The notes under the pieces are model-generated. The model made no database searches, was not told the origin of the DNA, and worked only from the letters and a program-made list of their open reading frames with translations. Below are positions 1 to 10,139 of a DNA stretch of 10,139 bases, in pieces. The position numbers and the translations under genes are program-made. Source of the stretch: Sutterellaceae bacterium (lineage in GTDB: Bacteria > Pseudomonadota > Gammaproteobacteria > Burkholderiales > Burkholderiaceae_F); assembly GCA_030531135.1 (NCBI GenBank), contig JAUNOJ010000029.1, forward strand, positions 1 to 10,139. The letters run 5' to 3'. How positions within the stretch are numbered: position 1 is the first letter of the stretch; each line of letters starts with the position of its first letter.

Positions 1-1247
1 CGCATCTTCACAACCTCGGATTTTGTGTTGTTACTGATGGCTTGGCGCGTTGCTCGTAACTGTTCCATAATCAAATCGTAGGCCCAAGACATGGCAATCG
101 CGTATGCCCAGTCAGAAGCTTCTTCTTTAGCTGTCGCGTAAGATGCAGTGGATAAGTTACGGACTACCGTACCCAATGCGGCAGGCATATTGGACATTAG
201 GTTCGATTCTTTTGCCGTGAAGGAGTTATTAGTTGTTTGAGAAAATTTCAAGACGATTCCGCTGTTGCCGTCTGCGCCTATCAGAGCTTCGCGAACACGT
301 TTCACCATACCGACAATATTGATGCTATCCGTGCCGGGGTCTAAACAGTCGTCGTCCGGGCAAGTGTAGAGTTTGACAGTTCCACCATCTAGCAAATCTT
401 TAAACTCAATCAGGGCGGGATAATACCGCGGATTGGTTGTATTGCCTTTATCCGGGTTCTTAGCATCTTCTGTGGACTTCGGGATCACAATCGTGCCAGA
501 AACGGCCATCAGAATGCCGTATTCTTTCTTTTCATTGTCGGCGCCACTGATCCAATTTGCCACCTTGCCGTCTTTCAACGATTCCCAAACGATGTTGCCG
601 ACTATTCGTTTAGCCTCTTCCGGTTTCTTTTCGTCAATTTCTTTCTTTTTATCAGTACCGCTTGAGCTTTCCTTAGAACCGAAGAAATCGTCATAAAGCC
701 CCGTCACAGTGCCGACAAGGCTATATTCGTATTCACGTTCTTTATCAAATGCTTTGGCAACGTCAGATACGAGACCTTGAGCCAATTCGCAAGAATTGCC
801 CATTTTTTCATTCAAACGCTGAATTTTGGATTGCAAATTATTGATCCATGCCATGCAGTCCTCACAAGCAATACCCAAAGCGATATTGAACGCATACCCC
901 TTGGCGTTAGACGCAATGGATCGCAGCAACTGGACAAACTGGTCAGCGTTGATGAAACTAAACGAACCCCCGAAAAGATCAATACCGCCACACCCGGCCT
1001 TAGCCGAAGGCAGTTGCAGATTGACAAGTTCGGTATTCATAATCGGGCTTCGCGAATAAAACGAACCGCCTGACAAAACGCCGCGACGCTGGGTTTCAAA
1101 GACGCCCGGACGCGAAAAGTTGGACATATCGTTAAAAACGGCGTCCATCTTACTTTGCAAGTCGCCTGCTTGAGCAAATGGCAAAGAGCCAAAAGCCAGC
1201 GCAACAGAAGTTGCCGCTGCAATAAAACTAATTTTCTTGGTTCTCAT
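1..1247 (-). CDS. traH: TraH, conjugative transfer (mating-pair stabilisation) protein, 3' end outside window
   Basis: F-type conjugation protein TraH. In the F system it is a periplasmic/outer-membrane-associated part of the pilus assembly and mating-pair stabilisation apparatus. Translating the minus strand from 1247 gives an uninterrupted frame of 415 residues that runs off the left edge; F TraH is about 460 residues, so roughly the last tenth is missing. Residues 1-27 are a Sec signal peptide (basic start, hydrophobic core, cut after FAQA). The segment after it, with MDAVFNDMSNFSRPGVFETQ, GGSFYSRSP, AGCGGIDLFGGSFSFINADQ and IACEDCMAWINNLQ, is the typical N-terminal TraH block. I chose ATG 1247 because GGAG lies 6 bases upstream; an in-frame ATG at 1259 lacks this. 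The start overlaps the end of traF by 20 bases, indicating one operon and probable translational coupling. TraG would be expected next, to the left. Confidence 0.93.
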   Translation of the reverse strand, partial: MRTKKISFIAAATSVALAFGSLPFAQAGDLQSKMDAVFNDMSNFSRPGVFETQRRGVLSGGSFYSRSPIMNTELVNLQLPSAKAGCGGIDLFGGSFSFINADQFVQLLRSIASNAKGYAFNIALGIACEDCMAWINNLQSKIQRLNEKMGNSCELAQGLVSDVAKAFDKEREYEYSLVGTVTGLYDDFFGSKESSSGTDKKKEIDEKKPEEAKRIVGNIVWESLKDGKVANWISGADNEKKEYGILMAVSGTIVIPKSTEDAKNPDKGNTTNPRYYPALIEFKDLLDGGTVKLYTCPDDDCLDPGTDSINIVGMVKRVREALIGADGNSGIVLKFSQTTNNSFTAKESNLMSNMPAALGTVVRNLSTASYATAKEEASDWAYAIAMSWAYDLIMEQLRATRQAISNNTKSEVVKM

Positions 1248-2349
1248 CAAGATCTCCATCTTCAATATTGCCGCTCGTTTGGGCTGCCTTACCAAATAAA
1301 GCAACCAGTTTCGAAGGTTCTATGAAGTTATCTTTGTTGGTTAGTTGTGCCTTGTCTGTGTCGCTCATAGCGATAACTTTTTCACTTTGCTCCTCAGAGC
1401 TGAAAAGCACCGTTGGATCACCGACGGACGCTTGCAACAGCTTGGGCAATTCTTTGCTTAAGTCATGCTGATCGTTCGGATTGAGGTAGGGTTGAGAATC
1501 CTTAAATTCTTCTTCTGTGATCCAGCCTTCGCGCTGGGCAACCAAAAGGATGCGGCGACGCAAATCGTCGTAGGACATCACTGTCTGGCCGATGGACGTG
1601 AACTGCCCTTCTTCGTTCATTAAGTAGATAGCGGGCGTAGCCGTCACGCCAAGGGCCTCTGCCTGGCCGGAATCGAGCTTTGTATTGGCAAACTTATGAC
1701 TCTTTAGTTCGCCGCCATCCATACTGACGGCCAGAATGTCAAAGCCATAATCTTCGAAGTAAGCCAAAAGCGGTGCTTGTGCTTCGCAGTACCTACAACT
1801 CGACTTGAAGAAGAAGAAAATACCCGCCTTCTCAGCGATCTTTCGCAACATATCGTCCGTGTGTCTGGCTGATGCTCGATCAATATAGGTTCCGGCAAAT
1901 GTTGCCAACGGACGACGCATACTTTCATCGAGCATGACATTGCCGATCACTACTTGTTGCGCAACGTCGGCAAACTTCGTCGCCCTATCCATGGCAAAGC
2001 GTTGCACCAAGAAGTAGGCTTGAACATTTTCCGGTGTCGGATTGTCCCAAGCGATTTCCTTGTACTTGGGCAGCATTTCTTGCACCCACTTCAAAGAGAA
2101 GGGTGCAGGCCCCGCCTTAGCTTCTTTTGTCGGTTCCGGCGGCTTCGGTGCTTCGGGAGGAGGCTCAATCGGTTCAAGCTCTTCTTCAGGAACCGGATCG
2201 ACGTACCAGTACCAACCTTCGGCGCCACTGTTATAAAAGATATTTGATGGCTGATTTTGGGCAGCCTCGGTCGCTGTCACAGCATAAGCTGCGTGACAGA
2301 CCGTGACAAGTAAACTGGCGATGATCGCCTTTTTGAAAAGTGAGTGCAT
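1228..2349 (-). CDS. traF: TraF, thioredoxin-fold conjugative pilus assembly protein with CxxC
   Basis: TraF of F-type type IV secretion, a periplasmic pilus-assembly protein with a C-terminal thioredoxin-like domain. The 373-residue length is larger than F TraF (about 250). In order: signal peptide 1-23 (cut near AYA), a GWYWYVDP aromatic motif at about 45-52 typical of the family, a Pro/Glu-rich linker at about 53-82, a helical domain at about 85-170, then a thioredoxin fold: strand GIFFFFKSS, active site C185-R-Y-C188, and cis-proline P239 in TATPAIYL. The tail (about 280-373) is charged and ends in an acidic stretch. The intact CxxC and cis-Pro suggest real disulfide redox activity; as I recall, F plasmid TraF lacks this motif and leaves that job to TrbB. 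Shine-Dalgarno AAGGG precedes ATG 2349. It is first in the visible minus-strand transfer operon and overlaps traH. Confidence 0.92.
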   Translation of the reverse strand: MHSLFKKAIIASLLVTVCHAAYAVTATEAAQNQPSNIFYNSGAEGWYWYVDPVPEEELEPIEPPPEAPKPPEPTKEAKAGPAPFSLKWVQEMLPKYKEIAWDNPTPENVQAYFLVQRFAMDRATKFADVAQQVVIGNVMLDESMRRPLATFAGTYIDRASARHTDDMLRKIAEKAGIFFFFKSSCRYCEAQAPLLAYFEDYGFDILAVSMDGGELKSHKFANTKLDSGQAEALGVTATPAIYLMNEEGQFTSIGQTVMSYDDLRRRILLVAQREGWITEEEFKDSQPYLNPNDQHDLSKELPKLLQASVGDPTVLFSSEEQSEKVIAMSDTDKAQLTNKDNFIEPSKLVALFGKAAQTSGNIEDGDLDENQEN

Positions 2350-2370
2350 TTGCCCTTACCCCAACTGAAT

Positions 2371-2387
2371 CTAATCTTGAAAATTAG
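2371..2387. repeat. Short inverted repeat between traF and the divergent small gene
   Basis: CTAAT and ATTAG (2371-2375 and 2383-2387) form a 5-bp inverted repeat with a 7-base spacer in the 40-80 base divergent intergenic region. Its position suits an operator for traF and the plus-strand gene, but the arms are short and chance is a real possibility. I see no convincing -35/-10 pair for either direction. Confidence 0.2.
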
Positions 2388-2427
2388 TCAATGATTGAGG
2401 TTGTCACGGCGGGATCGAAAGCAAAAA

Positions 2428-2733
2428 ATGCTTTCTACAGACATCAGACAATACGAAGTTAAGAAAATGCAAGAGATTGACTATTTTGCGCCCGCGCCAG
2501 CGTCCCTTGATGAGTGGAGAAAAGACTATCCGAATGTTCGAGGTACGATCTATCACGACAAGTCATCAAAGGGACTTAACCTGTACGGCAAGCCGTCCAG
2601 ACACAACGCATATCGTGCTGAAGTGAGCTATCAAGGCAAGAAGTACAGAAAGCGCTCGATTCTTTATATGGACTGCGTTCAGTTCTTGGTTCGCTTACAC
2701 CAGGAGAACACAAACGAGCCGGAATTGTTTTGA
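2428..2733 (+). CDS. Small basic protein, possible AP2-like DNA-binding protein
   Basis: Unrecognised with certainty. From ATG 2428 it is 101 residues; other in-frame starts are TTG 2395 and ATG 2467, and none has a good Shine-Dalgarno, so the start is open. From ATG 2467 it would be 88 residues. The C-terminal half has the pattern RGTIYHDKSS, then NAYRAEVSYQGKKYRKRS, then an amphipathic helix DCVQFLVRLHQE. A basic three-strand segment with an R-A-x-V-x-x-x-G-K core followed by one helix resembles the AP2 DNA-binding fold found in phage and mobile-element proteins. That match is by eye only. The gene is divergent from traF and so is placed where a regulator of the transfer operon could sit. 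A 23-codon ORF (2391-2462) ends just before ATG 2467 and could couple translation if 2467 is used; this is speculative. Confidence 0.55.
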   Translation: MLSTDIRQYEVKKMQEIDYFAPAPASLDEWRKDYPNVRGTIYHDKSSKGLNLYGKPSRHNAYRAEVSYQGKKYRKRSILYMDCVQFLVRLHQENTNEPELF

Positions 2734-2768
2734 AGAAGTTGCCAGAGAAGAAAGATGTGCGACTGACA

Positions 2769-2800
2769 GGGACACCGCACAAAACTACCGTGGGTGCCCC
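2769..2800 (-). other. Hairpin downstream of the 36-codon ORF
   Basis: On the minus strand GGGGCACC (2800-2793) can pair with GGTGTCCC (2776-2769) across a 16-base loop. One pair is G-U in minus-strand RNA but would be A-C in plus-strand RNA, so it folds better in a minus-strand transcript. There is no U-run after it, so it is not a standard terminator; it could be a 3' stabilising structure for the small mRNA. Confidence 0.35.
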
Positions 2801-2847
2801 GGCGTCAACCGAAATTAACGCTTCGTCAGGACATAAGCAAGAACAGC

Positions 2848-2958
2848 TCAGAGAACGACGATGCCGATGGTGAGCAACGTAAAGTTGCCGTCAATCCGGC
2901 AGTCGGTGAAATTGATCTGTGCTAATATCACAGCCGAGGAAGTTACATGTAGGTCCAT
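2848..2958 (-). CDS. 36-residue small protein, candidate type I toxin or antisense-regulated peptide
   Basis: Minus-strand ORF of 36 residues beginning MDLHVTSSAVILAQINFTDC and ending in the hydrophobic run FTLLTIGIVVL. It is preceded by a near-perfect Shine-Dalgarno, AGGAGG, whose end is 5 bases from ATG 2958, far stronger than those of the neighbouring large genes; this is the main evidence that it is translated. The 17-codon leader ORF ends with a TAA touching this Shine-Dalgarno, so translation could be coupled. A predicted plus-strand RNA covers its first eight codons and ribosome site. I do not recognise the sequence as a known toxin family (Hok, Ldr, TisB, Fst, TxpA and Ibs all differ). 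The two hydrophobic stretches (about 5-13 and 26-36) are too short for a classic transmembrane helix. Within the ORF, TGCCG/CGGCA can form a hairpin. The toxin role is an inference from layout only. Confidence 0.45.
   Translation of the reverse strand: MDLHVTSSAVILAQINFTDCRIDGNFTLLTIGIVVL
2920..2928 (+). promoter_or_regulatory. Extended -10 promoter for an antisense RNA
   Basis: TGCTAATAT at 2920-2928 is an extended -10 element (TG-N-TAATAT, one mismatch to TATAAT). No good -35 is present at 16-18 bases upstream, which is tolerated by extended -10 promoters. It points towards the terminator at 2978-3012 and lies inside the oppositely oriented 36-codon ORF. Confidence 0.4.
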
Positions 2959-2960
2959 GG

Positions 2961-3011
2961 TTACCTCCTAAAAGACGAAGCTCGGTGTTGCAACCACCGG
3001 GCTTTTGTCAT
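2961..3011 (-). CDS. 16-residue leader peptide coupled to the small ORF
   Basis: Minus-strand ATG 3011 opens a 16-residue frame (MTKARWLQHRASSFRR) ending in TAA at 2963-2961. Its last codons, AGG AGG, are themselves the Shine-Dalgarno of the 36-residue ORF, whose ATG follows the TAA after two bases. Its own Shine-Dalgarno, GAGGG (3025-3021), is 9 bases upstream and is locked in a GCAA-tetraloop hairpin. The layout recalls mok in hok/sok or attenuating leader peptides. The peptide itself is basic and probably only regulatory. Confidence 0.4.
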   Translation of the reverse strand: MTKARWLQHRASSFRR

Positions 3012-3012
3012 T
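2978..3012 (+). terminator. Rho-independent terminator of the antisense RNA
   Basis: AAGCTCGGTG (2978-2987) pairs over 10 bp with CACCGGGCTT (2995-3004) around a 7-base loop and is followed by a T-rich tract TTTTGTCATTTT. The single non-Watson-Crick pair is G-U in plus-strand RNA but A-C in the opposite RNA, so the structure is built for plus-strand transcription. It may also end readthrough from the gene at 2428-2733. Confidence 0.6.
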
Positions 3013-3020
3013 TTAATCAA

Positions 3021-3034
3021 CCCTCTTGCGAGGG
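3021..3034 (-). promoter_or_regulatory. GNRA-tetraloop hairpin hiding the leader-ORF ribosome site
   Basis: In minus-strand RNA, CCCUC-GCAA-GAGGG forms a 5-bp stem closed by a GCAA (GNRA) tetraloop. Its 3' arm is the GAGGG Shine-Dalgarno of the leader ORF at 3011, so folding would block initiation. Another small stem, TCGGC-AAGA-GCCGA, lies just upstream at 3043-3056. Confidence 0.4.
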
Positions 3035-3080
3035 GCCTGAAATCGGCTCTTGCCGAGAACTACGGGCAATCGCCGAAAAC

Positions 3081-3224
3081 TTAGGAAGTCTCGGCTTTGA
3101 GCTTTTTCAGGCGAGGATCACGAACTTCAGCGGTAACTTCTCGACCGCTCGCGGGCTTGAGTCTATATCGGCGGTTTTGTACAAAATGCAGGCTTGTGGG
3201 CGGGATATGCGATATCGGTTGCAA
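3081..3224 (-). CDS. Possible 47-residue basic ORF
   Basis: Minus-strand frame open from TTG 3224 to TAA 3083-3081. The C-terminal part (RYRLKPASGREVTAEVRDPR, then LKKLKAETS) has a protein-like, charged composition, more so than other frames here. There is no ATG and no clear Shine-Dalgarno, so it may be a remnant of an older gene or chance. It lies between the terminator of the membrane-protein operon and the small antisense locus. I do not recognise a family. Confidence 0.2.
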   Translation of the reverse strand: MQPISHIPPTSLHFVQNRRYRLKPASGREVTAEVRDPRLKKLKAETS

Positions 3225-3254
3225 CTTCGCACCCTACTCTGTCCACTTCAAAAC

Positions 3255-3279
3255 GAAAAAGCCCCGCGAAGGGGCTTAA
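3255..3279 (-). terminator. Terminator of the nuclease-HU-membrane protein operon
   Basis: On the minus strand GCCCC-TTCG-CGGGGC forms a stem with a stable TTCG loop, followed by TTTTTCGTTTT. It sits about 27 bases past the stop codon of the membrane-protein gene. The T-run is only on the minus-strand side, fixing the direction. Confidence 0.85.
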
Positions 3280-3305
3280 ACGGCTCGTGACGAGTTTAGA
3301 GTTTG

Positions 3306-3935
3306 TTACGCTGGCGGATGGCTCATGCTCTCCGTTTTGTACTCGGAAGCGCCACAAGTTTTACTTTTACCGTCCTTGTTGCCAGCGTCCTTGACCCATA
3401 GTTCGAGCACCGGATCCCAGACGTAGCCGGGAAAAGGCACCGTTCGGGGAAACTCATCGGTCATCCAACTCTTCTTTTTCAAGTTCCACTCGCCGTTACT
3501 CAATTCATGAGATTCGGCCCATGGGGCTTGCAAAGTTCTTAGAAAACGAAGCCAAGCAAAGCGGTTGTTCGTCTTTCCATGTCTTGCCAGTGCGTAATAC
3601 TGCTGTGCGATGATGCGCATCGTTTTCAATGTATGCGTCATAAACCAGTACAAAGCAAAGCAACCACAGGCACACTCCATGATTTTTGCCGTATACGCAT
3701 CCACTGCCAGACGCGGTGGTACAGCCAATGCTCCCACCAACACCGCACCAATCAGCACGCCGTCTGCCAACAGAAAGAGAATATTTCTCTTGATAAATGG
3801 CTCCCAGTCGGTGCGTGCACCCAGCATAAAATATCGCGGCGCCCAGATAGAAAACACGAGCGGAAACCAGACAAATCCGGCAAGTTCGGTCACGCCCGAA
3901 ACGAGCGCAAGAACGACACGAAAGAAATAGTCCAT
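3306..3935 (-). CDS. Integral membrane protein of unknown function
   Basis: 209-residue protein with no family I recognise. The N-terminal half is hydrophobic: about residues 5-38 (room for one or two helices), 51-73 and 83-105, giving three or four membrane segments. The segment at 83-105 contains a cysteine cluster (ECACGC). The C-terminal 100 residues are soluble, with basic and aromatic content (WNLKKKSWMTDEFP, PFPGYVWDPVLELWVKD) and a polar end. It is the last gene of a three-gene minus-strand operon: 17 bases after the HU-like gene and just before a strong terminator. A weak Shine-Dalgarno, AAGAGAA, precedes ATG 3935. As part of a conjugative element it could be an entry-exclusion or envelope accessory protein, but nothing in the sequence proves that. 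Confidence 0.7.
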   Translation of the reverse strand: MDYFFRVVLALVSGVTELAGFVWFPLVFSIWAPRYFMLGARTDWEPFIKRNILFLLADGVLIGAVLVGALAVPPRLAVDAYTAKIMECACGCFALYWFMTHTLKTMRIIAQQYYALARHGKTNNRFAWLRFLRTLQAPWAESHELSNGEWNLKKKSWMTDEFPRTVPFPGYVWDPVLELWVKDAGNKDGKSKTCGASEYKTESMSHPPA

Positions 3936-3952
3936 AAAAGTTCTCTTTAGCT

Positions 3953-4231
3953 TTAGTCACCGAGGACGGCTGCCTTAAAGGCATTACCGGGCGTAAATTT
4001 CGGCGTGCACCGGGCAGGGATGACGACCTCGGCCCCAGTTTGCGGATTGCGCGCAATGCGCTTGGCTGCTTGTCGTGTCCCAAAAGTACCAAACCCCAAG
4101 AGGCGCACCTGACCACCTTCTGCGCACTTATCCATGATTGTTTGGATGACGATATTGATGGTGCGTTCGGCCATCACTTTGCTCATGCCTGTTTCGGCGG
4201 CGAGAATATTGGATAAATCAGTCTTATTCAT
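3953..4231 (-). CDS. HU/IHF-family DNA-binding protein
   Basis: Histone-like protein of the HU/IHF superfamily, 92 residues from ATG 4231, matching the usual 90-99. This start has GGAG 9 bases upstream; the frame extends upstream to 4282 but those 17 residues lie beyond the family's N terminus. Helical dimerisation part: MNKTDLSNILAAETG then the helix containing TINIVIQTIMDK. Strand region RLLGFGTFGTRQ, then the DNA-intercalating arm containing RNPQTGAEVVIPA with its conserved R-N-P-x-T-G, then the terminal helix PGNAFKAAV. It lies 17 bases after the nuclease gene and 17 before the membrane-protein gene, so it belongs to that operon. Likely roles are DNA bending during Int/Xis recombination or transfer, or modulation of host HU/IHF. 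Family call is firm; HU versus IHF-subunit identity is not. Confidence 0.93.
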   Translation of the reverse strand: MNKTDLSNILAAETGMSKVMAERTINIVIQTIMDKCAEGGQVRLLGFGTFGTRQAAKRIARNPQTGAEVVIPARCTPKFTPGNAFKAAVLGD

Positions 4232-4248
4232 GGTGCGTTTCTCCAAGT

Positions 4249-5010
4249 TTAGAAGAAGGATGTAATGAAGGCTTTGACCCAACGGCTGGCGCCTTCACCG
4301 AGCTTGATAAAGATTTCCCACCAGCTCAATCTTTCGCTTTCAGGAAGCGATTGATCGGCGGTATGTTGTTCGGGATCATCGCCTTCGTCCGTGCCGGACA
4401 AGAAGCGATTTCGCCAACTATTCCAACGTTCGCTCAGAAGGTTGAAGTTGGTTTCGAGTTCTTCAGTGACGCCTTCTAAGGTTTCTCGATACTCTTCTTC
4501 AGCGATCTGATTAGCTTCACGGCGCTGCTTTCGCCAGCTCCAAGGCGGAACAGTGCCGCTTGCCTGCCACAGTCCGTCACCATTTAATCGTGCTGTTGAT
4601 TCGGCTGTTCGATACGCTTGCTGCCAGTCGGCTGGAATCTGAAAGCCGTAGTCTTGGTAGTACCAAGCGTAGCCGCGTTCAATCATGTAAAGGCCGACAT
4701 CGTTGCCACCGACGGCTACAGATGCCAAAACGCGGCCATGAGAATCCTTACCGTCGGTATTGAGAATGACGTTTTGGCCGGAGATGAGCTTGTTAAGTGC
4801 AGATCTGGCTTCGCCGCCAAACGGCTGATCGGACTCGGGAGCGTCGATGCCGCGAATCCTCACTTGAATAACGGCATCATTGGTGATGACTTTGATTGTA
4901 TCGCCGTCAATAACACGGTCAACTCGACCGTGGTAAATCTCAGCCTGAGTGCAAGTACAAACGACAGCGCAAGCGAGAGCCGAGACAATCGGAAGGACAC
5001 GTAGCTTCAT
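4249..5010 (-). CDS. Secreted staphylococcal-nuclease-like (thermonuclease) protein
   Basis: Calcium-dependent nuclease of the SNase family, probably periplasmic, 253 residues from ATG 5010. An upstream in-frame ATG at 5145 would add 45 residues ahead of a perfect signal peptide (residues 1-23, cut after TQA), so 5010 is preferred although its Shine-Dalgarno is poor. Conserved residues are all there: VIDGDT with D35 and D37, R51 and D56-A-P-E59 in RIRGIDAPES, and R93 in HGRVLA, matching Arg35, Asp40, Glu43 and Arg87 of the S. aureus enzyme. The nuclease domain ends at about 155 (GLWQASG). The tail of about 100 residues is a charged helix (about 160-205), an acidic linker (206-226) and an amphipathic Trp-rich end (LSWWEIFIKLGEGASRWVKAF), possibly membrane-touching. 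SNase-like proteins occur on conjugative plasmids (RK2 ParB). A possible -10, TAAAAT, is at 5047-5042. Confidence 0.9.
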   Translation of the reverse strand: MKLRVLPIVSALACAVVCTCTQAEIYHGRVDRVIDGDTIKVITNDAVIQVRIRGIDAPESDQPFGGEARSALNKLISGQNVILNTDGKDSHGRVLASVAVGGNDVGLYMIERGYAWYYQDYGFQIPADWQQAYRTAESTARLNGDGLWQASGTVPPWSWRKQRREANQIAEEEYRETLEGVTEELETNFNLLSERWNSWRNRFLSGTDEGDDPEQHTADQSLPESERLSWWEIFIKLGEGASRWVKAFITSFF

Positions 5011-5170
5011 GGTTTCAAGAGTTTCAGGTAAAACAAAAACTATTTTATGAAGGCCGTTTTTGCAAAAAGGCAGGCAATATCGCACATCCTGCTTTCCTGC
5101 GCGTAATTTGTGAGCGTTTTGCTCGGTACTCTCGCCTTGTATCAACTGATGACTGACTCGGGTTACTGAG
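5011..5170. other. Divergent intergenic region between nuclease operon and excisionase-like gene
   Basis: 160 bases separating divergent starts. It has an inverted repeat around 5053-5070 (GCC, TTTTT, GC, AAAAA, GGC) that could be an operator or IHF/HU-type bent site, and a candidate minus-strand -10 (TAAAAT, 5047-5042) without a matching -35. No convincing plus-strand promoter was seen. Confidence 0.3.
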
Positions 5171-5392
5171 ATGGATGAAAAATTAACAAAACAAGAGGTT
5201 GCAGAATTTCTTCATATTGGTGTGCGAACGGTTGAAAGAATGGCTAGAGAAGGTAGATTGCCACGCGGTATTCGTATGGGACGCAAGTCCTACTGGTGGC
5301 GCAGTTCTCTGGAAAAGGCTGAATCTCTAATGAAGGCTGAAGCCGAACGCCCCATGAAAGCTTATGCCAAGGAGCGTCGGCTAACCATTTGA
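5171..5392 (+). CDS. AlpA/excisionase-like helix-turn-helix protein
   Basis: 73-residue DNA-binding protein of the MerR-like winged HTH type used by AlpA and many excisionases. The core is LTKQEVAEFLHIGVRTVERM (two helices with the turn at HIGV), followed by the wing REGRLPRGIRMGRKSYWWR, where the G-R-x-x-W pattern is typical; a short charged helix follows. It probably binds the element's end to promote excision and may control integrase or its divergent neighbours. It converges on the integrase: its TGA (5390-5392) directly abuts the integrase stop (5393-5395) with no base between. The start ATG 5171 has only a weak Shine-Dalgarno (CTGAG), so translation may be low, as is common for excisionases. 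Confidence 0.82.
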   Translation: MDEKLTKQEVAEFLHIGVRTVERMAREGRLPRGIRMGRKSYWWRSSLEKAESLMKAEAERPMKAYAKERRLTI

Positions 5393-6462
5393 CTATTTCA
5401 GCATTAAATCTGCCCATTTCTGCATGACCGACTTACGGTGATCAAGCAAATCGTCACGGAAATACGCTTGGACAGTCTTGTCACCGTAAGCGTGAGCTAG
5501 ACATTTTTCAGCCACGGCGTCAGGAACTTTTTCTCTGGCGCACCAGTCTCTAAACGTTGATCTGATGCCGTGAACTGTCACTTTACGGCCCACAATCATT
5601 GTCAGTTTTACTCTAGGCGAGTCGCTACCCAACTGCTTTCCTTGATGAGTAAACAGAAGCCCTTTATCTTTAGCCATACTCAAAGCAACATCGGCAAGTG
5701 TACTTAACGGAACCCTATGCGGTTTCTTGGCCTTCATTCTGTCGGCTGGAATATTCCAGATACCGTGAATAATTTCCTCGGCCAAAGCGCCTCGAACTTC
5801 AGTGATTCGTGTAGCTGTCGCAATCACCATTAACAATGCCCCGCTCACAGGGGACGGATGCGCCATGCAGTACTCGACAACTGTTTTCAGTTCTTGTATC
5901 GTAGGTGCTTCATGGTGTTTAGGTTGTTGAATCTTATACCGAGACGGTAATACGGTATCAAGGTTGCCTCGCCAACTGGCGGGGTTCACCCCTGAACAAT
6001 AACCTCGAACTCTGCACCAATCCATGACCGCCCCGATTCTGGCTCTGACACGATTGGCCGTTTCCGGTTTGTCATACCAGATAGGTTCTAAACAATTCAG
6101 AATGTCATTGGTCGAAATTTTGTCCACACGGATTGTTGCCAAGGTCGGCATCGCATAATCATTGAGGGATTGATACCACTGCTGATAGCTTTTGGCATTT
6201 TTCCAGCGCTTTACCTTCTCGATGCCAAAGCCTTTTCCAATATCTCTCCAAATGTCGGACAAGATTTTTCGGACAAATTCACTTTAATGCTGCCGGAACT
6301 GGGAGACGGTTTGACGGTACGAAGCAGTTTGATCGCTTCATCTTTAGTCATTGAGCTGACGCGACCAAGGCTTTTCTCGTATCTTTTACCGTTGAAGGTA
6401 AAACGAGCAAGATAATATTCAACGCCTTTGGTCTTTTTGATCCGGAGGGTTGCTAATGTCAT
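5393..6462 (-). pseudogene. int: P4-family tyrosine integrase, split by a frameshift
   Basis: Site-specific tyrosine recombinase of the P4/CP4-57-like group that integrates elements into tRNA genes. The frame from ATG 6462 (GGAG 6 bases upstream) encodes the N-terminal DUF4102-like arm-binding domain (MTLATLRIKKTKGVEYYLAR onward) and stops at 6213-6211 after 83 residues. The rest lies in the -1 frame down to 5393: core-binding segment (KRWKNAKSYQQWYQSLNDYA), then the catalytic domain with R in TATRITEVRGA, K in the KAKKPHRVPLS area, HGIR (H and R), H in LAHAYGD, and nucleophile Y in VQAYFRDDLL. Joining the frames near 6211-6222 restores the usual spacing between TFGEILEKAL and WKNAK, which points to one missing base. 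All catalytic residues are intact. Either the integrase is dead, there is a sequencing error, or there is -1 ribosomal slippage; no canonical slippery heptamer in frame was found, though GAA AAA at about 6275-6270 is A-rich. A TTG at 6262 could start an N-terminally truncated product. Confidence 0.88.
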
Positions 6463-6721
6463 TCGAAACTCCAAAAAAAGTTCCCACAATTTGCCGTGAA
6501 ACTAGGTCGGTAAAGTGTGGGGGAACTGCAAAATTTTCCCCCAAAACAGAGGGGGAACCAATGCTTTTTGGCGTATGAATCGGTATCAATTAGCGAGATT
6601 TGGCGAAGATTGGCGGAGTTTGACGCGCTCGAAAACCCATAAAACAAAAGGCTTCGAAGTGTATCAACCTCAAAGCCCTTGCAAATCACGCGTTTTCAGC
6701 AATGTATCTCAAAAGATACGA
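6463..6721. other. Integrase-to-tRNA region with candidate integrase arm sites
   Basis: 259 bases without a convincing gene; this is the right end of the element. A GGGGGAA motif recurs in alternating orientation: TTGTGGGAAC on the minus strand (6489-6480), GTGTGGGGGAAC plus (6515-6526), TTTTGGGGGAAAA minus (6546-6534) and AGAGGGGGAACC plus (6548-6559). Such clustered repeats beside a P4-type integrase and its attachment site suit arm-type binding sites. The neighbouring inverted copies can also pair as a hairpin in RNA upstream of int. The rest, 6560-6700, shows nothing I can name. Confidence 0.4.
6704..6719. repeat. Perfect hairpin right after the tRNA CCA
   Basis: GTATCT (6704-6709) and AGATAC (6714-6719) form a 6-bp inverted repeat with a 4-base loop two bases from the encoded tRNA CCA. 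It could be the tRNA transcript's 3' processing or termination structure or part of the attachment-site core. There is no clear T-run for a classic terminator. Confidence 0.35.
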
Positions 6722-6811
6722 TGGCGGAAGGGGAGGGATTCGAACCCTCGGTGCCCGATTGGACACGCCGCCTTTCCAGGGCGGTACATTCAACCACTCT
6801 GCCACCCTTCC
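6722..6811 (-). tRNA. tRNA-Ser (anticodon GGA), element integration target
   Basis: Complete serine tRNA on the minus strand, 87 bases from 6811 to 6725 plus encoded CCA at 6724-6722. Acceptor GGAAGGG (6811-6805) pairs with CCCTTCC (6732-6726), discriminator G 6725. The anticodon stem CCGCC/GGCGG encloses CTGGAAA with anticodon GGA at 6777-6775. A long variable arm typical of class II Ser tRNAs follows, then the T arm GAGGG-TTCGAAT-CCCTC. It decodes UCC/UCU. The integrase gene lies just past the 3' end, so the 3' part of this gene is the probable attachment site of the element that extends leftwards. Confidence 0.95.
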
Positions 6812-7144
6812 GCACTGCTCAAATTTTCCTCTGTTGCTGAACTCTGTCAACCGCAGAGAATCGGCATTATATAAGAGATTTTTACTTTTGTACAGGGATA
6901 ATTAGAGCTTTTTTCTCGCTTCATGGAGAGTCTCAAAAATGCCGTTGATTTCATTGGATTCTTTTTTATCCTATTTGCAAGCATTTTTCCCTTTGCTTGC
7001 CCTATCCGTCTAGGATTTTCTTTATCGGTAAAATGCGAGTTTTTGGCCTTACCGACTGGATAATTTTCTTGCCCCTGCAACGATTTATTATTCGATTTTG
7101 TGAGACCTCCCCCATACAATGACAACCGACCAAAGGAAAAAATA
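6812..7144. other. Intergenic region between tRNA-Ser and the lipoprotein gene
   Basis: 333 bases that carry the minus-strand tRNA promoter (6866-6894) and the leader of the plus-strand lipoprotein gene. TCGGTAA (about 7025) and TTACCGA (about 7050) form a loose inverted repeat. TACAAT near 7117 could be a -10 for the lipoprotein, but no good -35 is in place. A minus-strand frame of 101 codons crosses the tRNA promoter and is not credible as a gene. Confidence 0.4.
6866..6894 (-). promoter_or_regulatory. tRNA-Ser promoter
   Basis: On the minus strand a perfect -10 TATAAT (6871-6866) lies 17 bases after TGTACA (6894-6889), a 4/6 match to the -35 consensus. Transcription would begin near 6859, giving a 5' leader of about 48 bases before the tRNA at 6811. 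Confidence 0.65.
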
Positions 7145-8113
7145 ATGATCAAAAAATTGACCGGTTTGGCCTTCGCCGTTGTAGCAGCTACTGTTTTGAC
7201 GGGCTGCGCCTACACCAATCCGGAACGTGCTTTGTTTCTGGAAACGCACGAATTTCGTCCCGAGTTAAGTCGTGCGAGCAACATTCTTGAGTCCTTCATG
7301 TACTACAACGTCAAGGACAATCCTATTGACCAAGAAGTCCAGGGAGATCTCAAGATTGCCGAAGACGGCTCTGTGACGCTTGAAGGCTTGGGAATGGCTG
7401 CAAGCTTATATGATGCCGCTAGAATCGGCGGACCGCTCCCGGGCACTTCCAGCGGCTGGGGTGCTTTTGGCGTCGGCATGGGACTTTCTATCGCCAAATC
7501 TCTTTTTTCTCGCGGTAATCCTTTGGCTCACTCCACATTGTTGGGCTATTTGCCTGTAGAAGAGGCTCCCGACTACACAGAAGCGCGCGCCGTCTTTACG
7601 GAAAAGGTCGCTAAGGGCGTCATTGCCACTTTTAACGAGTTGTACCCAAACGCCAAAACCAACGTGCTTACGAGCAACGATCGAGTCAGCTTGTACTTTG
7701 ACAACTATGTTGAAATCGATGACGAGAAACTCGGATGTGAGTTCTGGAACGAAGAAGTCGAGAAGAAAAAGACGTATTGCGCCGTGCGCATCCGTATGTT
7801 TAAACGCCACATTTCCGACTCCTACCTGATCAAGGCAAATCCGGCAATATCAAAAGAAGGTAATCAAGTTTGGGCATTCACCGGCGATGCGGGACAAATT
7901 TTGTTCTATGGCGGTGAAAAACAAAACATTAACTGGACGACCTTTGCGATGGCGTTGGCAAAGCATTTGCCGGAATATGCCTACGCTTTCATTCCGGTAC
8001 TTGAAAATTCCGATGGAAAAAGCCCGATGTTCGTGATTGAAAAGGATCGCGTCAATTTCTTCATTAAACCCAAGGCTGCTACCGAAGAAGCCGCTCAAGA
8101 GACGAAGAAATAA
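7145..8113 (+). CDS. Outer-membrane lipoprotein of unknown function
   Basis: 322-residue lipoprotein. ATG 7145 is chosen over an upstream frame start at 7100 because AAAGGA lies 8 bases upstream and because it begins a perfect lipoprotein signal: MIKKLTGLAFAVVAATVLTG then C21 in the lipobox LTGC. Alanine at position +2 (no Asp) predicts sorting to the outer membrane by Lol. The mature protein has a helical N-terminal part (ERALFLETHEFRPELSRASN), a Gly-rich hydrophobic stretch at about 95-120 (GPLPGTSSGWGAFGVGMGL) that could touch the membrane, and a mixed C-terminal half with two cysteines in GCEFWNEEVEKKKTYCAVRI that could form a disulfide. It ends in a Lys/Glu-rich tail. I do not recognise the family. 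It is monocistronic: a terminator follows directly. Confidence 0.85.
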   Translation: MIKKLTGLAFAVVAATVLTGCAYTNPERALFLETHEFRPELSRASNILESFMYYNVKDNPIDQEVQGDLKIAEDGSVTLEGLGMAASLYDAARIGGPLPGTSSGWGAFGVGMGLSIAKSLFSRGNPLAHSTLLGYLPVEEAPDYTEARAVFTEKVAKGVIATFNELYPNAKTNVLTSNDRVSLYFDNYVEIDDEKLGCEFWNEEVEKKKTYCAVRIRMFKRHISDSYLIKANPAISKEGNQVWAFTGDAGQILFYGGEKQNINWTTFAMALAKHLPEYAYAFIPVLENSDGKSPMFVIEKDRVNFFIKPKAATEEAAQETKK

Positions 8114-8132
8114 TCTATCGCTTTGGATACCC

Positions 8133-8173
8133 CTACCCCGAAGTTGCTTTTGCCGACTTCGGGGATAGTTTTT
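8133..8173 (+). terminator. Terminator of the lipoprotein gene
   Basis: CTA-CCCCGAAGT (about 8134-8144) pairs with ACTTCGGGGATAG (8156-8168) with one bulge, around an 11-base loop, and is followed by TTTTT. It lies about 20 bases past the lipoprotein stop. Confidence 0.8.
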
Positions 8174-8248
8174 CCCACAATCCACAACTTTTGTGGAAAA
8201 AAGTACCCGACTCTCAAAAAGTCTCGAAAAATCAATGTTTTGCTTAAA

Positions 8249-8265
8249 TGCCTAAAATTTAGGCA
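8249..8265. repeat. 17-base palindrome TGCCTAAA-A-TTTAGGCA
   Basis: Perfect 8-bp arms around a single central base, about 340 bases upstream of the catalase gene. The one-base centre rules out an RNA hairpin and fits a dimeric transcription-factor operator. It is followed by CGTGTTTTTGC. The regulator is unknown. Confidence 0.4.
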
Positions 8266-8516
8266 CGTGTTTTTGCTCAAAATTCCGGGGAAATTCTCCC
8301 CGCTGTCCCCTTCTCAGTCGGCGTTGCGAACAACACCGGCTTCGACCTTCGAACGCCCCTTCCTACCCCGCAATCGGCAGAAAGAAACCTCCATTCTTTC
8401 CCACGAAAGCCTGAACGAATTGTTTGCTTACAAATCTCCCGCAAATTTATTTTTGCCCACAAAACAGTCCGCCAAGCCTTGCTGCCGTTGACCTCCACTT
8501 CTGAAAATCCGTTCTC

Positions 8517-8542
8517 TTATCCAATACATAGGACGATACTAT
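8517..8542 (+). promoter_or_regulatory. Candidate OxyR binding site upstream of catalase
   Basis: TTAT (8517-8520), N7, ATAG (8528-8531), N7, CTAT (8539-8542) match three consecutive quarter-sites of the OxyR pattern ATAG-N7-CTAT-N7-ATAG-N7-CTAT (TTAT is 3 of 4 for CTAT); the fourth quarter on either side is poor. It ends 5 bases before the catalase -35, the normal place for OxyR activation. Catalase genes are classic OxyR targets. Confidence 0.55.
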
Positions 8543-8547
8543 CGACA

Positions 8548-8576
8548 TTTACCGTAAGCTGGAAAATGTCTATCGA
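8548..8576 (+). promoter_or_regulatory. Catalase promoter
   Basis: TTTACC (8548-8553, 4/6 to -35), 17-base spacer, TATCGA (8571-8576, 4/6 to -10). Transcription would begin near 8583, a short leader before the Shine-Dalgarno AAGGAGGG and ATG 8603. Weak matches are expected for an activator-dependent promoter. Confidence 0.45.
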
Positions 8577-8602
8577 CTGCCCCCATAAGGAGGGAACACA
8601 AA

Positions 8603-10099
8603 ATGAGAAACCCGATCAGCAGTATTGTCTCGCGCCTGACAACAGCCTTCGGCGCCCCGGTTGCCGACAACAACAACGTCCGTACGGCTGGTCCGCGCGG
8701 TCCGATGCTTTTGGAAGACATTTGGTTCTTGGAAAAGCTCGCCCACTTCGATCGCGAAGTCATTCCGGAACGCCGCATGCATGCAAAGGGATCGGGCGCC
8801 TACGGTGTGTTCCGCGTCACAAACAACATCACGAAGTATTCCTGCGCCAAGCTCTTTAATAGCATCGGCAAAGAAACGCCTCTGTTCATTCGCTTCTCGA
8901 CGGTTGCCGGCGAACGCGGTGCGGCCGATGCCGAACGCGACATCCGCGGTTTTGCCGTGAAGTTTTACACCGAAGACGGCAACTGGGACTTGGTGGGTAA
9001 CAATACGCCGGTCTTCTTCCTGCGCGATCCTTTGAAGTTTCCCGATCTTAACCACGTGGTTAAGCGCGACCCGCGCACCAACATGCACTCCAACACCTAT
9101 CAGTGGGACTTCTGGACGCAGCTGCCTGAGGCACTGCACCAGATCACCATCTTGATGGGCGATCGCGGTTTACCGCGCACCTATCGCCACATGCACGGTT
9201 TTGGGTCTCACACCTTCTCGATGTATAACGATGAGGGCGAAAAGGTCTGGGTGAAGTTCCACCTCAAGTGTCAGCAAGGCATCGAAAACTTGACCGATGA
9301 AGAAGCTGCCGCCGTCATTGCGCAGGATCGCGATTCGCACCAGCGCGACTTGTACGGCGCAATTGAGCGCGGCGACTTCCCGAAATGGAAGCTCTATATT
9401 CAGGTGATGCCTTTGGAAGACGCCGACAAGGTGCCCTACCATCCGTTCGATCTCACAAAGATTTGGCCGCACGCCGACTATCCCCTGATCGAAGTGGGTG
9501 AAATCGAACTCAATAAGAACGCCGAAAACTACTTTATGGATGTGGAACAAGCGGCGTTTAACCCCGCTAACATCGTACCCGGAATCGGCTTTTCGCCCGA
9601 TCGCATGTTGCAAGGGCGTCTCTTTTCCTACGGCGATGCCCAGCGCTACCGCTTGGGCGTCAACCATTGGCAAATCCCGGTCAACAAAGCCCGTGCCTGC
9701 CCGTTCTTAGCGATGTTTCATCGAGACGGCGCCATGCGCGTGGAAAACCAAGCCACCGACGTCACGTATGAGCCCAATACGTTCGGGCACTTCCAAGAAA
9801 ATCCGCATGCTCGCCAACCGGCAATGCCGCTCTCAGGCACTGCTGATAACTACGACATACGCGAATACGACGACGATTATTACACCCAGCCCGGGTTACT
9901 TTTCCGCTTGATGTCGGCTGAAGAAAAGGCACGCTTATTTGCCAACACGGCACGCGCCATGGCAGGCGTTTCCGATCGTATTCGACTCTTGCATGCCTAC
10001 CACTGCTACATGGCCGATCCGGCTTACGGCGAAGGTGTTGCCAAGGCTTGCGGCTTTACGCGCGAACAACTCAAAGAGTATGTTGACGCTCAAAGCTAG
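8603..10099 (+). CDS. katA: Monofunctional heme catalase (KatA type)
   Basis: Catalase, 2 H2O2 to 2 H2O plus O2, 498 residues, the size of small-subunit clade 3 enzymes. Complete: distal His60 in [12 protein letters not shown], Ser99 in [14 protein letters not shown], distal Asn at 133-134 in [13 protein letters not shown], and proximal heme-ligating Tyr343 in the R339-L-F-S-Y343-G-D-A-Q-R signature. Conserved [12 protein letters not shown] and [13 protein letters not shown] are also present. It has no C-terminal flavodoxin-like extension and no signal peptide, so it is cytoplasmic. The start has AAGGAGGG 9 bases upstream. The N terminus ([12 protein letters not shown]) is slightly longer than in many homologues. 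It stands alone with its own promoter and a candidate OxyR site, implying peroxide induction. Only 40 bases follow in the window, so a terminator cannot be judged. Confidence 0.95.
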
Positions 10100-10139
10100 C
10101 GCTATTGATCGTCAGAGCCGCATCTGAGAAAATCCCCGC

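Follow-up and report, generated by a model that had tools for sequence, protein, structure and literature searches.

The DNA analysed here, referred to as the window, comprises bases 1-10139 of a 12,660-base contig from a Sutterellaceae bacterium. Its left part forms the end of an F-type conjugative element, and beyond traH, traF and an unnamed frame lies a compact locus in which a small peptide frame and a predicted RNA gene occupy opposite strands (Table 1). On the far side of this locus, a second unnamed frame is followed by genes for an HU-type protein, a nuclease-fold protein, a small helix-turn-helix protein and a split integrase, and then by a tRNA gene. The integrase consists of two overlapping minus-strand frames, 5393-6262 with integrase domains and 6211-6489 with no Pfam match, which suggests a frameshift or an assembly error within 5393-6489. 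Bases 3252-3309 of the window are a 98% match, over 58 bases, to the end of another contig (L007, G000:C61, bases 1-58), which bears several small, related-looking genes.

Table 1. Features of the peptide/antisense-RNA locus and of its surroundings in the window
Feature	Position	Strand	Basis or remark
36-codon ORF encoding the N-terminal part of the candidate toxin peptide	2848..2958	-	ORF list; family frame by protein HMM
Complete frame of the family type, broken at 2848-2850, its basic tail past the stop also of family type	2815..2958	-	protein HMM
In-frame TGA ending the ORF within the hydrophobic stretch	2848..2850	-	sequence; protein HMM
Shine-Dalgarno sequence AGGAGG, 5 bases from ATG	2964..2969 (plus strand CCTCCT)	-	same place in relatives
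Extended -10 promoter of the antisense RNA, opposite peptide codons 11-13	2920..2928	+	family consensus about TGTGGYATAATC
Antisense RNA, candidate antitoxin, ~80 nt	2935..3014	+	both ends predicted
Stem-loop 1 of the antisense RNA	2937..2969	+	fold; covariance model
Apical loop 1, hypervariable in the family, corresponding to peptide codons 2-4	2950..2955	+	fold; sister-copy comparison
Stem-loop 2, intrinsic terminator, with tail to 3014	2974..3009	+	fold; terminator scan
Apical loop of stem-loop 2, hypervariable in the family	2988-2994	+	sister-copy comparison
Stretch past the antisense gene that presumably belongs to the 5' leader of the peptide mRNA	3015..3152	-	
Candidate -10 of the peptide mRNA, weak, tentative	3160..3165	-	207 bases upstream of ATG; 4/6
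traH (F-type conjugative element)	3-1304		
traF (F-type conjugative element)	1228-2349		
Unnamed frame between traF and the locus	2428-2733		
Unnamed frame past the locus	3306-3935		
tRNA, after the split integrase	6725-6811		

The initial annotation of the window had described a minus-strand ORF of 36 codons with AGGAGG five bases from its ATG, opposed by an extended -10 promoter and a rho-independent terminator that together would define an RNA of about 80 nt. Each of these elements is present in the sequence. The promoter is composed of TG at 2920-2921 and a hexamer at 2923-2928 that agrees with the consensus at 4/6 positions; it is not among the rows of the promoter scan, because that scan demands a -35 element. 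The terminator scan returns stem-loop 2 as 2977-3005 on the plus strand with 11 pairs. The implied RNA folds better than its shuffled versions (z -3.51; 0 of 200 shuffles fold as well), and the 3' side of the apical stem of stem-loop 1 is the reverse complement of the peptide start codon. What had been overlooked is that the 36-codon ORF is a longer family frame shortened by a TGA: the match of the peptide profile to the window frame (G000:C211:2818-2952, profile positions 3-42) is weak (E 0.004) and contains this one internal stop. The notion of a working toxin in the window is hence not supported. Given an RNA gene that looks intact and a peptide frame cut by a stop, the window copy probably represents a candidate antitoxin left without its toxin.

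Is the locus a member of a wider family? The 67 genomes of the bacterial family were searched with covariance models of the RNA gene. A first model, built from the window copy and the copy in genome G005 (R1), gave 34 matches in 18 genomes; a second, of 32 sequences with the window included (R2), gave 53 matches in 25 genomes, of which 34, in 18 genomes, had E <= 1e-8. To limit circularity, a third model (R3) left out both the window and the G005:C28 copy and drew on 31 relatives, its training rows having been chosen with R2, which itself contained the window copy. R3 recovers bases 2917-3018 of the window at 66.0 bits (E 1.9e-12) and scores the G005:C28 copy at 102.9 bits; together with the fold, this shows that the predicted RNA gene is more than a chance pattern. 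The lowest-scoring antisense matches, such as those in G013, G019:C3 and G033, may be due to chance, and the 34 matches at E <= 1e-8 are counted separately below for that reason. At the DNA level, a search of 101 genomes found the G005 copy to be 72% identical over window bases 2923-3014 and otherwise returned the window itself, a 58-base end of one of its own contigs and a 27-base match in G052 (L003). The latter was taken as chance, being 27 bases of a stretch that reads as ABC-transporter genes.

Carriers confirmed by R3 include Sutterella wadsworthensis DSM 14016, Parasutterella secunda An562 and P. muris NM82_D38, as well as MAGs titled Duodenibacillus, Sutterella and Burkholderiaceae. 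A pattern scan yielded 13 records, of which R3 confirmed 10, but not L061, L067 and L072. One viral-contig record scores the same as the P. muris copy and has an integrase-like frame in its flank. Across broader samples, R2 matched 6 of 399 genomes of the order, all in the window's own family, and its sole match among 274 genomes of the class was the window's own genome. The peptide profile likewise matched 3 of 300 genomes of the order, in the same family, and 1 of 349 of the phylum, again the window's own genome. No match outside the bacterial family was found with R2 or the peptide profile in these order, class and phylum samples, in which weak relatives may be missed because many-genome searches apply stricter filters.

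Throughout the family, the predicted antisense RNA measures about 80-90 nt, with promoter, structure, terminator and covariation on the strand opposite the peptide. Two-sided changes occur at 16 of 21 pairs in the alignment A8, and the covariation score is 0.324 against 0.132 for shuffled and at most 0.085 for slid versions, with A8 fitted to the structure and the pair tests not phylogenetically independent. From G-U pairs on one strand facing A-C on the other, it had been argued that the terminator is built for the antisense strand; consistently, of 53 copies, 45 have the stabler terminator region on the RNA strand and 8 on the mRNA strand. The RNA gene has no Rfam match in the window or in 15 loci. 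A ProQ/FinO-domain protein was found in none of the 8 family genomes searched, with a positive E. coli control, and pairing would therefore probably be independent of that chaperone class.

Type I toxins are small proteins, usually of fewer than 60 residues, with one membrane stretch. The family has this size and build, the window copy itself being interrupted: intact peptides comprise 41-58 residues, with a single hydrophobic stretch as judged by hydropathy average and a basic tail, and one of 60 has an altered end. They are of the type M....-SSWEIMPQ-...TGDIHVDG-hydrophobic-RTKR, and all 20 intact peptides tested combine a hydrophobic stretch (best 15-residue hydropathy average 1.62-2.93) with a net-positive tail. 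Their ATG lies 59-69 bases from the 3' model end of the antisense RNA, to which their Shine-Dalgarno sequence is reverse complementary. In a number of the 53 loci, a clear peptide frame is no longer present. Comparison of 28 frames gives a dN/dS of 0.40 for codons 16 onward and 0.69 for codons 2-15 (45 related, non-independent pairs of >45% identity), and the peptide frame outside the RNA overlap is, as far as sequence comparison can tell, under purifying selection. The initial annotation had staked its proposal on homologues and on coding bias in the ORF, and both were found. It had also stated that the peptide belongs to no familiar toxin family. In agreement with this, ten peptides gave no match above cut-off in Pfam, NCBIfam or PADLOC, the closest below it being an LPXTG anchor for one peptide (15.3 bits against 15.9), and 20 peptides had no match better than E 0.025 in PHROGs. 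In a large protein database, 190 of 401 candidates pass E 0.01; none of the 120 matches listed has a Pfam domain, and few of the matches listed are named, one as a phage tail protein and the others as hypothetical.

Peptide and RNA gene appear to be lost unequally. With the peptide profile (A7), 41 matches were obtained in 19 of the 67 genomes. Near-full-length matches, defined by a profile start <= 5 and an end >= 35, number 28, and every one of them overlaps with an antisense match, also the two in which a stop interrupts the frame (TAG in G005:C48, TGA in the window). This association is partly built in, as A7 was derived from loci of this kind and shares its N-terminal part with the RNA gene; the terminator lies outside the profile. 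Viewed from the other strand, the 34 antisense matches at E <= 1e-8 divide as follows: the near-full-length peptide match is uninterrupted at 19 and has a stop at 2, the frame is partial or shifted at 4, there is no peptide match at 6, and a contig end truncates the remaining 3. In 10 broken copies, the RNA gene has an identity of 0.74 and the peptide body of 0.47 to the closest intact copy; in 24 intact copies, the values are 0.75 and 0.70 (Mann-Whitney p 3e-4; 34 of the 53 copies). Since the antisense model served to find the copies, the conservation of the RNA in broken ones is partly built in, and nearest pairs are partly reciprocal. Two C-terminal peptide remnants (G058:C82 and G052:C6) have no antisense match.

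Where might the peptide mRNA begin? In 13 of 21 copies, a TATAAT-like hexamer (at least 5/6) precedes the ATG by about 177-203 bases, as against 5 of 105 control windows; the promoter of the peptide mRNA in the window itself is tentative. We envision a full-length mRNA that would begin about 175 nt upstream and whose 5' end would fold back over the region of its translation start. When the 5' ends are placed at -180 to -168 without recourse to any motif, the first 28 bases form 207-219 pairs with the -14 to +30 region over 21 copies, as compared with 39-44 pairs (sd 20-22) when the 5' end is shuffled. At least 10 fold-back pairs form in 11-12 of the 21 copies and fewer than 10 in 9-10, and the fold-back is weaker with the 5' end at -186 (141 vs 57). 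According to this model, the full-length mRNA probably masks its start region in about half of the copies.

The leader ORF that had been annotated as overlapping the ribosome site does exist in the window, as a GTG frame of 9 codons together with a 16-codon frame that starts with ATG. A frame of this kind is present in only 11 of 37 copies examined, which rules out a conserved mok-like leader and removes the basis for the hok/mok-like coupling that had been suggested. Of the parts whose co-conservation had been proposed as a check, peptide, ribosome site and terminator are conserved together in relatives, and the leader is not. In hok/mok/sok, an antisense RNA lies over a toxin mRNA with a structured leader, and both traits are resembled here; the unconserved leader frame sets the present family apart, as do the lack of a Pfam or NCBIfam match above cut-off and of an Rfam match at the RNA gene. 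Window bases 3035-3112 and bases 1634-1712 of L002, belonging to the window and G005:C28 copies, which are both element-borne, have a common GCCTGAAA...TTTCAGGC frame with inner hairpins. CCTGAAA recurs in the leaders of several other copies.

Sister copies differ mostly in the two apical loops. Six non-overlapping within-genome pairs from five genomes, similar enough to align, differ at 20 of 42 positions in loop 1 and 20 of 39 in loop 2, compared with 49 of 461 in the rest of the RNA and 36 of 523 in the rest of the peptide frame (loops 40/81 against 85/984 elsewhere, Fisher p 7e-19). For the full set of ten computed pairs (eight within-genome, two between-genome), the figures are 60/131 for the loops against 138/1597. 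Many structured RNAs have loops that vary freely; the argument that more than this is at work here is the comparison with synonymous sites. Codons 2-4 have a pS of 0.44 and a pN of 0.40, and codons 6 onward of 0.09 and 0.06, respectively. Silent and amino-acid changes are thus raised alike in codons 2-4, as expected if the RNA loop is the target. Among 47 database proteins of 57 residues, codons 2-4 reach 2.45, 1.87 and 1.15 bits and most others stay below 0.5, the exceptions being codon 30 (1.73 bits, almost as high as codon 3) and codon 6 (1.34). Of the 53 copies, 37 were examined; they give 30 within-genome pairs, formed by 27 copies in nine genomes, and both loops are identical in 1 of these pairs. 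The two copies of G106:C1 have an identical loop 2. The loops of the window match neither intact copy seen in its own genome.

The initial annotation had placed the locus on a conjugative element, with a possible role in plasmid/ICE maintenance that, like toxicity, stays hypothetical. The window copy adjoins traF and traH, and the G005:C28 copy lies about 5 kb from a TraG-type gene; at 18 other sites, there are no transfer genes among the neighbours scanned, with short flanks and many neighbours without a Pfam match. The neighbours at those sites are in part ordinary genes, for alanyl-tRNA synthetase, a HemN-type protein, symporters and a RelA/SpoT-type protein, and further include integrase, DarT, HipA-type and helicase genes. 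A scan of plasmids and a TraF scan of genome contigs gave no match. Transfer genes were thus seen beside two copies only; a special tie is not supported, and the link of the family to conjugative elements is weak. At L018 2496-3107, a DarT-type gene adjoins an intact Parasutterella secunda copy, with a DUF2357 protein on the opposite flank. A cluster of helicase and PLD-type genes beside the G005 copy (L005 10317-17426) has the look of a restriction or defence island.

From an abstract perspective, the layout is type I-like, as had been proposed: a small peptide gene lies opposite a predicted RNA gene with its own promoter and terminator. One strand would encode a candidate membrane toxin of 41-58 residues with one hydrophobic stretch and a basic C-terminus. 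The other would produce an RNA of about 80-90 nt. With its promoter opposite about codons 11-13 and its terminator in the peptide leader, this RNA would cover the ribosome site, the start codon and the first codons. We infer that this RNA is transcribed, that it pairs first by its two apical loops and that it then blocks translation of a toxic peptide. On the sequence evidence, the locus probably belongs to a new type I toxin-antitoxin or toxin-antitoxin-like family, which occurs in Sutterella, Parasutterella and Duodenibacillus and whose recognition loops diversify, and the idea of the initial annotation is largely correct at the level of the family.

Alternatively, the peptide may be a small membrane protein without toxicity, such as a stress or envelope regulator, controlled by the same RNA mechanism. 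Small membrane proteins under antisense control need not be toxins, and several copies adjoin ordinary chromosomal genes; however, we consider this unlikely, because a patchy, multi-copy distribution, frequent inactivation of the peptide while the RNA gene is kept, an RNA gene at 28 of 28 near-full-length peptides (partly built in) and a hydrophobic, basic-tailed build are what a toxin predicts. Far less probable still is a free-standing, trans-acting regulatory RNA that would work through its anti-Shine-Dalgarno segment, with an incidental opposite frame. The interrupted peptide of the window and the better preservation of RNA gene than peptide body in the ten broken copies (0.74 vs 0.47) would agree with it, but the dN/dS of 0.40 outside the overlap, the conserved length and tail, the 190 proteins of the database search and the fact that the loops change codons 2-4 in a peptide otherwise largely preserved all argue for a genuine peptide gene. 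The narrower version, in which the anti-Shine-Dalgarno motif of such an RNA alone explains the opposite AGGAGG, was dropped since relatives have a conserved peptide frame. A fertility-inhibition RNA like FinP of FinP/traJ, which is reported to be likewise antisense to a ribosome site with pairing begun at apical loops (PMC9977716), and which the transfer genes near the window and G005:C28 copies would suit, is rejected as exceedingly improbable on the ProQ/FinO search (0 of 8 genomes) and the gene contexts, as no traJ-size frame lies opposite the RNA, the target is not TraJ, the RNA gene has no Rfam match and the neighbours scanned at 18 other sites include no transfer gene.

If the family is indeed of the type I kind, how might its paralogues coexist in one genome? 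Sister loci could stay independent through the letters of their loops because pairing would start there, and the peptide tolerates loop change because loop 1 corresponds to its codons 2-4. It is possible, if short of probable, that the loops constitute an evolving address code: sister loci would be driven apart until each RNA silences only its own toxin, and RNAs without a toxin would serve as spare antitoxins against toxins of the same address. The single within-genome pair with two identical loops, in Parasutterella secunda, consists of an intact copy (G017:C18) and one with a broken peptide (C20), their RNA genes being 94% identical; this fits and, as an n of 1, supports the idea of a spare antitoxin. 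Were the address code true, the element in the window would carry a leftover antitoxin.

The type I kind of system is already known, and the family itself is apparently new: a literature search of open-licence papers found no earlier description of it or of its loop divergence. Its closest working parallel is AapA/IsoA of Helicobacter pylori. Compared by description, the two have in common a short membrane peptide with a basic C-terminus, a cis-antisense RNA and several paralogous loci. Reports on AapA1/IsoA1 describe a Shine-Dalgarno sequence sequestered by a 5'-3' interaction, two kissing loops, and a toxin whose first eight residues are dispensable and whose basic C-terminus is needed (PMC8167048, PMC8309996). 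The dispensable residues, so described, match the freely changing codons 2-4 of the present family, whereas the predicted fold-back here joins the 5' end to the start region and that of AapA its 5' to its 3' end. AapA/IsoA also resides in another bacterial lineage, and the family described here has no Pfam, NCBIfam or PADLOC match above cut-off and no Rfam match at the RNA gene.

For specificity set by few bases, the closest parallel is OrzO/OrzP of E. coli; to our knowledge, OrzO is not cis-antisense over the start codon. The ZorO-OrzO and ZorP-OrzP pairs are reported to be paralogous, their antitoxins discriminate by few variable bases, three of which set the specificity of OrzO, and OrzO differs from the RNA considered here in acting via its 5' end (PMC3919570). 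Ibs/Sib of E. coli likewise forms multi-copy antisense pairs, with recognition domains TRD1 and TRD2, but IbsC has 19 residues (PMC8309996) as opposed to 41-58 here, and the RNA gene here has no Rfam match.

If our reading of the locus as a type I toxin-antitoxin family is true, gut Sutterella, Parasutterella and Duodenibacillus would gain such a family. Its natural copies differ mainly in two short loops, and the evolution of antisense specificity would thus become testable with natural sequences, as would the questions of how few letters make pairs independent and whether antitoxin genes without a toxin protect against addiction.
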